A stretch of DNA of 48,463 nucleotides from Nitrospirales bacterium (GTDB taxonomy: Bacteria; Nitrospirota; Nitrospiria; Nitrospirales; UBA8639). Position 1 is the stretch's first letter. The number at the start of each line of letters is the position of its first letter. Positions 4,048 through 18,352 of the stretch are shown piece after piece. Location of the stretch: NCBI GenBank assembly GCA_021604005.1, contig BQIV01000036.1, positions 1-48,463 of the forward strand. Reading direction: 5' to 3'. The notes below the pieces were generated by a model. That model was not told the origin of the DNA, did no database searches, and saw nothing but the letters and a program-made list of their open reading frames with translations. The position numbers and the translations under genes were made by a program.

Positions 4048-4650
4048 GTCTATCGGTATCTCCGGTGTGGTGTTGCATTGAATCGTTAGCCAACCTTTCC
4101 TTTTCTTGCCATATCTTTTGGTCTCCACGTTCTCCCTGTCGCCATGTTCGCATTCTAACCACGTGTTCACGCGATTGAGTTGTTTGCCGTTTGAGGGTAT
4201 TGGCAATATTTTACAACGGAATGTCGTTCAAACTTGACGCATGCATGCATGAAAACCTGTTGGCTCAGGGGTCGCAATCATGCATAATAGGTAAAGGGTT
4301 TTCTTGACAAAGGAACGTACAGCCAAGCTGAGGTTCATGAGGATATATTGATGGACAATGCGGCAGGTTTTCGTTTGTTGGTGAATGGAGAGGGGGTTAT
4401 TGGGCGTTCGTGTTCACACGGAATCGAATGCGTAATGTGCCTTTGTTAATATTTGGCTATCGTGACCGATACAGTAATTGACCTGATGGTTTTTGTCGGA
4501 TCTGACGAAATCTTTTTTCCATAGAATGCACGAGTGGGTCGTGTGACAATAATGGCGTCGCTACAGATGAGAACAATAATGCATTTCAGTCATGTCTGCG
4601 AGTGCTATGCTTGTCAGGTTTCAGTCCCATGCTAAGCCGGTGAGGAGCCT
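4048..4650. other. Long intergenic region, no convincing gene
   Basis: No convincing gene lies in these 600 bases. A 32-codon reading frame at 4351-4449 starts with ATG, has AGGA seven bases upstream and contains two C-x-x-C-like cysteine groups. It is too short to judge and may be chance. A short GCATGCATGCATG repeat lies near 4240. I did not find a convincing promoter for the SWIM gene that follows. Confidence 0.4.
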
Positions 4651-16866: not shown

Positions 16867-16895
16867 TTGACAACCAGATCGTGGATAAGTAGCAT
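16867..16895 (+). promoter_or_regulatory. Promoter candidate for the exported-protein pair
   Basis: A perfect TTGACA (16867-16872) and TAGCAT (16890-16895, four of six) are separated by 17 bases. The predicted start near 16902 would leave an untranslated region of about 130 bases before the gene at 17034. The intergenic space 16839-17033 holds no gene. Confidence 0.55.
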
Positions 16896-17033
16896 GGTCC
16901 TCTAATTTCCGTAGAGAAAAATCGTGTGCACTATGCAAAAGAATCGAGTCCTGTTTTTGAAAAAAGAGTGTTCCCAAAAGATTGTTGGTATCCTTTATTT
17001 AAGTCATTCTAACATCAGTGAAGGAGGGAGGAG

Positions 17034-17585
17034 ATGAACAAGTCATCTTTTCGTGTTGGGGTCGTAGCGCTCGTTGCCTTCGGTCTTCTGACATTTGGTA
17101 TGACCGGTATTTCCCTTGCTCAAAAAGGTCCAGCTGACAAGAATCCAAAAGCAAAGGGTCAGCCAGGGGATGTTGCTAGCCAAGGAAAAATCACCTACAA
17201 AGGGAAAAAGGCCACGAGCTTAAAGGGGCGGTTGTACGCTCACTGGGCGGATAATCCCGAGGGTGAAGTGCTGTTTGGCATTCAGTATTGGAATTCGACT
17301 GATCCTGCAGAAACAGGAAACTTCCCTGGCCGGGCTTCCGATGATCGAAGCGTCGCGTTGCCTGACCCGCTCGTTGCCTGCTGTAGCTGGGGCTTCACTG
17401 GCGGAGAAGACAACAACAAAGCCTATGCCGGTTGGTACAATCCACAAACAACCGTTCGTTTACGGGTAAAAGACAAGGCGTTGTTGGATCAAATCACGAA
17501 GGCCGCACAAGATTTTGTTGCCATGGAAGTGCAGCTTGCTGATGGAGATACTATTACAGGCTTCAAAGTCATGGAAGAAGAGTAA
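17034..17585 (+). CDS. Exported protein of unknown function, first of a tandem pair
   Basis: This is a protein of 183 residues. GGAGGGAGGAG immediately precedes the ATG, a very strong ribosome-binding site. Residues 1-29 form a signal peptide ending S-L-A-Q. A basic linker rich in K, G and P follows (about 30-55). The core is probably beta-rich: S-L-K-G-R-L-Y-A-H-W, then V-L-F-G-I-Q-Y-W-N, a vicinal cysteine pair in V-A-C-C-S-W-G-F, then T-T-V-R-L-R-V-K-D with a helix and a final strand F-V-A-M-E-V-Q-L-A-D. I do not recognise the family. The order of elements parallels the next protein, which suggests distant paralogy. It is probably periplasmic or secreted and well expressed. Confidence 0.75.
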   Translation: MNKSSFRVGVVALVAFGLLTFGMTGISLAQKGPADKNPKAKGQPGDVASQGKITYKGKKATSLKGRLYAHWADNPEGEVLFGIQYWNSTDPAETGNFPGRASDDRSVALPDPLVACCSWGFTGGEDNNKAYAGWYNPQTTVRLRVKDKALLDQITKAAQDFVAMEVQLADGDTITGFKVMEEE

Positions 17586-17661
17586 TACGGTCTGTGTACG
17601 TGAAAAGAATTTTGAAACTTTATTATATTCAATGAAATTCTTTAAGAGGAGGGAAGGCATT

Positions 17662-18288
17662 ATGAAAGGTCGTAAGACTCGGTGGGCATTACTGGCTGCC
17701 ATTGCCCTAGTTGGTGGAATGGCCTCCAATGCCATGGGTATTGAGGCATTTCAAGAACGCTTTGAGTGGGGTGACCTAAGCAAGCCAACAACTCTACATG
17801 GTCGAGTTGCCGTTGTTGATCCGTATGACAAGGCTGCATGGATCAACGTCGCTGTTTTCGGGGGAAATGCCGAAAGTGGTTACTACTGGCAGAAGTATTA
17901 CCCTGGAAAAAATATCAAAGTATACGCTGGGAATGATGAAGTCTGGAACCAGTTGAAATTTCTCGGTAAAGATTCTCATAGCCAGGCTGTGATGACAGGG
18001 ACAAAGCCTTCGAAGTATTCGTTAGTTGAAATTACAATTCAAGAGACTGAGCAGAACCACCGGGTTGTGCAATCGTTGAAGGTCGTCGATGACAATGCCG
18101 GGACTCCTGAAAAGCCAAGAAATATTGCCAGTCTTCGATCAAAAACGATTCAGCAGGCTATGATCGATGATTCTTGGCCCCAGAACAGAAAAATGCTCTA
18201 TGATGTTTTGATTCCAGGCGGAACACCGGTTTCAGGTATCATCAGAAACTCTAATCAAGGTGTTGAATACCGTCAACTCACTCCATAA
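17662..18288 (+). CDS. Exported protein of unknown function, second of a tandem pair
   Basis: This is a protein of 208 residues. I placed the start at ATG 17662, where AAGAGGAGGGAAGG lies just upstream and a signal peptide begins at once (M-K-G-R-K-T-R, hydrophobic core, S-N-A-M-G); the frame runs further upstream into the preceding gene without meaning. The core has T-T-L-H-G-R-V-A-V, then I-N-V-A-V-F-G-G, then N-I-K-V-Y-A-G-N-D-E-V-W-N-Q-L and L-V-E-I-T-I-Q-E-T. These line up with elements in the upstream gene. The C-terminal 60 residues are unique to this member. Function is unknown. The pair ends at a strong terminator, so it forms its own transcription unit. Confidence 0.75.
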   Translation: MKGRKTRWALLAAIALVGGMASNAMGIEAFQERFEWGDLSKPTTLHGRVAVVDPYDKAAWINVAVFGGNAESGYYWQKYYPGKNIKVYAGNDEVWNQLKFLGKDSHSQAVMTGTKPSKYSLVEITIQETEQNHRVVQSLKVVDDNAGTPEKPRNIASLRSKTIQQAMIDDSWPQNRKMLYDVLIPGGTPVSGIIRNSNQGVEYRQLTP

Positions 18289-18313: not shown

Positions 18314-18352
18314 AAAAAGGGAGCAGCTTCGATGTGAGCTGCTCCCTTTTTT
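18314..18352. terminator. Strong bidirectional intrinsic terminator
   Basis: GGGAGCAGCT (18319-18328) and AGCTGCTCCC (18337-18346) form a perfect ten-base-pair stem with an eight-base loop. Five A residues precede it and six T residues follow, so it can stop transcripts from the exported pair and from mutS on the other strand. It touches the mutS stop codon. Confidence 0.93.

Follow-up and report, generated by a model that had tools for sequence, protein, structure and literature searches.

The window analysed here, the whole 48,463-nucleotide contig BQIV01000036.1 of a Nitrospirales assembly (GCA_021604005.1), contains two neighbouring forward-strand genes, here called A and B, together with a set of associated signals (Table 1). 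An initial annotation made from the letters alone had proposed two adjacent genes at this site, and conservation across relatives confirms both reading frames as genes. For B, the start was placed at the ATG at 17662 rather than at the TTG at 17515 of a longer listed frame, a choice that both its ribosome-binding site and the aligned relatives support. Strong ribosome-binding sites, which the initial annotation had attributed to both genes, are present as well. Reading by eye, we found at the N-terminus of each protein a short basic stretch, a hydrophobic run and a plausible cleavage site, which would place the start of mature A near residue 30 and that of mature B near residue 27. Both proteins thus appear to carry a Sec signal peptide, in agreement with the export originally proposed for them. 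The Pfam-confirmed neighbours in the window are rbfA, truB, rpsO, pnp and an M16 peptidase gene on the 5′ side, and mutS, tsaE and a YjeF/NAD(P)H-hydrate-dehydratase gene on the 3′ side.

Table 1. Features of the A–B locus, in window coordinates, and positions of the related C genes, in coordinates of their own loci
Feature	Position	Strand	Basis or remark
Sigma-70-like promoter of the A–B unit, TTGACA-17-TAGCAT	16867-16895	+	Motif scan; family conservation
Shine-Dalgarno of A, AAGGAGGG	17021-17028	+	Sequence; AGGAGG-type site also in relatives
Gene A, apparently exported protein of 183 aa	17034-17585	+	Conservation; matches in 183/196 Nitrospirales genomes
Predicted OB-fold core of A	17217-17570	+	AlphaFold2 model; SilF match
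Vicinal Cys116-Cys117 of A	17379-17384	+	CC in f1 and f3 rows
Shine-Dalgarno of B, GAGGAGGG	17646-17653	+	Sequence
Gene B, apparently exported protein of 208 aa	17662-18288	+	Conservation; matches in 185/196 Nitrospirales genomes
Conserved start of mature B, IEAFQERFEWGD, putative docking segment	17740-17775	+	Conserved residues
Predicted OB-fold core of B	17788-18084	+	AlphaFold2 model; SilF match
Intrinsic-terminator-like hairpin 3′ of B	18314-18351	+	16-pair stem, T-rich tail
C proteins	L155:7422-7799, L156:7347-7841, L157:7342-7716, L158:7451-7843, L159:7296-7709		Away from the A–B locus

Nitrospirales bacteria, NPIRA01 and OFTM51 among them, are the nearest named relatives of the window, and within this order the two genes are close to universal. 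They occur together in 180 of the 192 genomes of three families, here called f1 (the family of the window), f2 and f3 (41/48, 8/8 and 131/136, respectively), and in none of the four genomes of a further family, f4. Outside the order, B was found in 0 of 197 Nitrospirota genomes and A in 0 of 252, the totals with a match being 97 of 295 genomes of the phylum for B and 136 of 395 for A; these tallies do not name every match-free genome, and unlisted ones were assigned to the outside group because the lists are sorted by kinship. Both genes are generally present in single copy, with a second match in a few genomes. Moreover, A is directly followed by B, with a gap of 37-119 nucleotides, in 55 of 55 loci among L061-L120 in which both genes are complete; in the five loci excluded from this count (L061, L075, L092, L114 and L120), one gene is interrupted by a frameshift, by a run of N or by the end of the contig. 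One of the collected contigs, L067 (JAJDDC010000103.1), is labelled Phycisphaerales and carries a Nitrospirales A–B pair with 69% identity to A; it is probably mis-binned.

The surroundings of the pair are similarly stable. Across 29 large loci (the window, 8 from f1 and 20 from f3), mutS is present in all and the M16 peptidase gene in 28, the lone exception being L101, where a long opposite frame apparently masks it. All six f2 loci keep mutS convergent to B, and no M16 gene was found in these six within the 1.5-kb flank. Identity to f3 relatives amounts to 55% for A and 50% for B, values comparable to those of the M16 peptidase (56%), mutS (57%) and truB (51%). The pair is inherited vertically within this housekeeping block. 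A setting of this kind, among rbfA, truB, rpsO, pnp, M16 peptidase and mutS genes rather than beside nxr, together with a distribution that tracks phylogeny, fits an ordinary envelope-maintenance or surface pair that was kept from the Nitrospirales ancestor and has no link to nitrogen metabolism. Against this reading stands the absence of A and B from the four f4 genomes, f4 being the sole family of the order that yielded no NxrB, although phylogeny alone also explains that absence. We consider this possibility to fall only slightly short of an even chance, and it is compatible with the exported heteromer that we favour below.

With respect to transcription, the TTGACA and TAGCAT boxes of the promoter 5′ of A show no variation across the 15 upstream regions aligned from f1, and all 21 upstream regions examined from f2 and f3 contain a TANNNT box together with TTGACA (18 loci) or TTGACT (3 loci). 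A weaker promoter-like match (9/12) starts at 17600 in the gap between A and B, and the terminator-like hairpin lies between B and the convergent mutS. Taken alone, the motif scan performs at chance level, with 3 promoter sites against 2.6 expected and 2 terminators against 1.7 expected. Since it reported no terminator-like site between A and B, the two genes look like a single two-gene operon. The earlier proposal that each gene has its own promoter and terminator is therefore correct as to the existence of both elements, which are however common to the two genes.

Further conserved features were observed in the leader. The element GTCATNCTA, located in the stretch 16985-17033 immediately 5′ of the Shine-Dalgarno of A, does not vary among the 15 upstream regions aligned from f1 and is possibly a leader or translation signal. 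In ten f3 loci (L096-L100, L102, L104, L109, L111 and L112) a promoter-like box lies about 200-228 nucleotides 5′ of A, which gives a long leader, and several of the long f3 leaders contain the purine-rich AAAGGAGGT or AAAGGGGGTG. Rfam searches at gathering thresholds returned only a tRNA in the window, with no match at the A–B operon or in five f3 loci.

In terms of expression level, the suggestion that these proteins are made in large amounts is unsupported by codon usage. When 259 ORFs of the genome were scored with 20 ribosomal-protein genes as the reference, A ranked 103 and B ranked 6 by a log-ratio score, and 130 and 100, respectively, by CAI; these ranks carry little power, as codon bias is weak in this genome and rpsO itself ranks 112 of 259. 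A possible identity of A with NITMOv2_2496 was also considered, an exported Nitrospira protein that resembles A in its apparent export and in having no known function. In the available sections of the published study (PMC6606698), no other exported protein of unknown function named for N. moscoviensis is more highly transcribed, and it stands with nxrABC at the top of the transcriptome. Position rules this identity out, as A lies at 4.2165 Mb in genome G400, which interpolates to a tag near 4470 and not 2496. We took G400 to be N. moscoviensis because its five NxrB copies (at 243, 3799, 3808, 4274 and 4281 kb) fit the order and spacing of the NxrB tags 0254, 4027, 4032, 4533 and 4537 listed in Table 2 of the same study, as available (PMC6606698). 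Searching the 80 kb around the expected position of 2496 with the A and B profiles gave nothing convincing (lowest E values 0.064 with the A profile and 0.25 with the B profile).

Neither protein matched a Pfam or NCBIfam family, in keeping with the unknown family originally suggested, and Pfam searches with 26 members each of the A and B families returned scattered weak matches only. Likewise, no PDB sequence matched below E 0.27 with profiles or E 0.91 with the single proteins. Searches of openly accessible article text found no published description of the pair or its tags. AlphaFold2 models were built separately for A and B from 30 aligned rows each. Mean pLDDT is low overall (53.9 for A and 56.9 for B). 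By blocks, it reaches 78-85 in the C-terminal strand–helix–strand part of A and 71-93 across the strands and helix of B, and falls below 50 in a loop of A (mature 56-109) and to 29-52 in the loops of B. Within this low overall confidence, the better-predicted part of both models follows the order strand–strand–strand–helix–strand–strand of an OB barrel, with a long loop in A between strands 2 and 3. SilF ranks first among structural matches for both the B model (Foldseek E 2.5e-3; VIA Z 10.0, rmsd 2.7, 76 aligned) and the A model (Foldseek E 8.6e-2; VIA Z 8.3, rmsd 3.0, 73 aligned); in the VIA lists further OB proteins follow SilF, about 1 Z lower in the case of A. The two genes make up a widely conserved pair whose family is undescribed and whose predicted fold is of a familiar type.

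The initial annotation went further and read the two proteins as highly diverged paralogues, citing a common motif order (T-L-x-G-R, V-x-F-G, a charged strand and a final strand pair) that is indeed present in both. Unrelated folds, which it had named as the outcome that would speak against kinship, were not obtained, and the low-confidence models instead give the same strand–helix order. Comparison of the mature alignments (57 rows for A and 56 for B) by profile–profile methods yielded a probability of 33-37 and a score of 30.5, which was reached by none of 200 column permutations of B (maximum 26.9) and by one of 200 block shuffles. The alignment is gap-free from mature residue 85 to 130 of A, and it pairs A 111-116 with B 58-63 and A 119-129 with B 66-76. 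These stretches correspond in exact register to the third strand and the helix predicted separately in each model. The N-terminal halves disagree, as the alignment sets the Cys-Cys stretch of A on the second strand of B, and the model has the second strand of A at mature 49-54.

Several of these observations could also be accommodated if A and B were both exported OB-fold proteins but not paralogues, that is, unrelated barrels joined in an operon through working together. BLASTP detected no similarity between the two (E 1.0), the profile probability is modest, and OB folds are widespread. In addition, a set of short B-like exported proteins of 125-165 residues, here called C and found in genomes G094, G084, G096, G120 and G048, matches the B profile clearly (probability 98, E 2.6e-14), whereas comparison of C with A does not rise above controls, with 9 of 100 shuffles reaching the score. 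The excess over every column permutation and over all but one of the 200 block shuffles, the register of strand 3 and the helix, and the first structural match common to both models argue against unrelated barrels, which we regard as unlikely though a serious alternative. A common origin of A and B as diverged OB-fold paralogues is likely on this evidence, although not proven.

A carries a pair of adjacent cysteines, which the initial annotation had correctly described as present in A and absent from B. All 31 f1 rows and all 20 f3 rows have CC at residues 116-117, and all six f2 rows have GG there. Mature A contains no cysteine in 6 of 57 rows (f2), two in 37 and four in 14 (f1), such that CC is the sole cysteine pair in 37 rows; these counts are not independent events, as many f1 rows are closely related. 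Mature B is free of cysteines in f1 and contains two in each of the other families, f2 and f3. The even cysteine count of A, with CC as the only pair in most members, suggests that these residues probably form a vicinal disulfide in the oxidising periplasm, a metal or redox site being the alternative. Since the Cys-Cys is absent in f2, it is dispensable for the basic role of the A family. Conserved adjacent cysteines provide a sharp handle for biochemistry. The 14 f1 rows with four cysteines (for example, L071 and L077-L085) have, besides the Cys-Cys, an extra pair, CSSNKKC, near the start of mature A.

Taken together, these observations are best explained by a pair of strongly diverged, paralogous OB-fold proteins that are exported by Sec from one vertically inherited operon and form a soluble periplasmic heteromer, an interpretation to which we would assign an even chance of being correct. 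One constitutive-looking sigma-70 promoter would drive both genes, and the two chains, once exported by Sec, would fold as OB barrels in the periplasm and pack against each other or onto a common partner. Conserved adjacency and the common promoter are consistent with such a heteromer, which A and B may form. For B, residues I27, F30, E32, R33, F34, E35 and D38 are conserved across 56 rows from three families, and we propose that the first mature residues, IEAFQERFEWGD, serve as a docking segment through which B would contact A or a third partner. A, for its part, could present the long Cys-Cys loop between strands 2 and 3 as a rigid or redox-active surface. Besides the low model confidence, the commonness of OB folds and the discordant N-terminal halves, further points weigh against this interpretation: f2 does without the Cys-Cys altogether, and the C proteins, clear relatives of B in the profile comparisons, do not match A above controls. 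A and B are a clear target for study, being carried by nearly every member of the order under a conserved promoter of their own and undetected in the rest of the phylum, and may represent a neglected part of the Nitrospirales cell envelope or of nitrite oxidation.

Nitrospirales include the commonest nitrite oxidisers as well as complete ammonia oxidisers, and they oxidise nitrite in a periplasm that is poorly understood; the pair could be an envelope component specific to this lineage, or else a piece so far missing from the machinery of nitrite oxidation. At E 1e-60, NxrB was detected in 118 of the 192 genomes belonging to f1-f3, many of the misses being fragmented assemblies, and in 0 of 4 f4 genomes. 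Among the eight genomes with neither A nor B, two contain NxrB (G040 and G185, each in more than 500 contigs). The agreement between NxrB and A–B at the family level is real, but it is fully explained by common ancestry and hence establishes no role. In the genome from which the window derives (G000, a 100%-complete assembly), no NxrB was found with the narH profile TIGR01660, with TIGR03478 or with an NxrB protein. Its relatives carry up to five near-identical NxrB copies, and because the gene is multi-copy this gap is probably one of assembly. We judge it improbable that A and B form a so far undescribed module that assists nitrite oxidation in the Nitrospirales periplasm. If they did, an OB-barrel pair with a vicinal disulfide in most members would bind NXR or its electron acceptor and would be required by all nitrite-oxidising members of the order.

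A known companion of the enzyme, NXR-T of Kuenenia, was also compared with A and B. In the available text of its description (PMC8387239), NXR-T is a tubule-inducing NXR subunit, and the idea considered was that A and B might likewise be small partners of a nitrite oxidoreductase of the periplasmic type. This candidate was ruled out, as NXR-T is a four-helix bundle that binds c-type haem (PMC8387239, same text), whereas the models of A and B consist mainly of strands, are predicted beta barrels and contain no CXXCH.

Our preferred reading of A and B as exported OB-fold paralogues also invites comparison with SilF and CusF (PF11604), which are periplasmic silver and copper chaperones with an OB fold whose metal ligands belong to a WPxMTM motif. 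A role of the pair as such a chaperone, or as a sensor for copper or silver, with the two cysteines of A binding metal in place of the Met and His of CusF, is very improbable: SilF/CusF is the top structural match of both models and there is a weak alignment of the A profile to CusF over P-x-x-T-x-R (score 22.1, reached by 1 of 100 shuffles), but in this alignment both Met of the WPxMTM motif, which all five CusF/SilF rows contain, stand opposite Thr and Val of A, B gives no alignment to CusF, PF11604 finds nothing in the genome of the window at E 0.01, f2 lacks the cysteines, and the conserved neighbours are housekeeping genes and not those of metal efflux. In line with this, PF11604 matched neither A or B nor any of the 25 relatives searched for each, and the WPxMTM motif was not found in A or B. 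Although A and B resemble SilF/CusF as predicted small OB barrels that, judging from their N-termini, are likewise exported, they differ in the long Cys-Cys loop of A, in a C-terminal extension of B and in their location outside any metal-efflux operon.

Clear relatives of B are found in the C proteins, four of which were searched against Pfam with no match. They have an apparent signal peptide, as B does, share its barrel core, and differ in being encoded elsewhere in the genome, in lacking the C-terminal extension and in having no A partner that we could see. In three of the five loci (L155, L157 and L158), the C gene is adjoined by a gene for an ABC-F-like ATPase.
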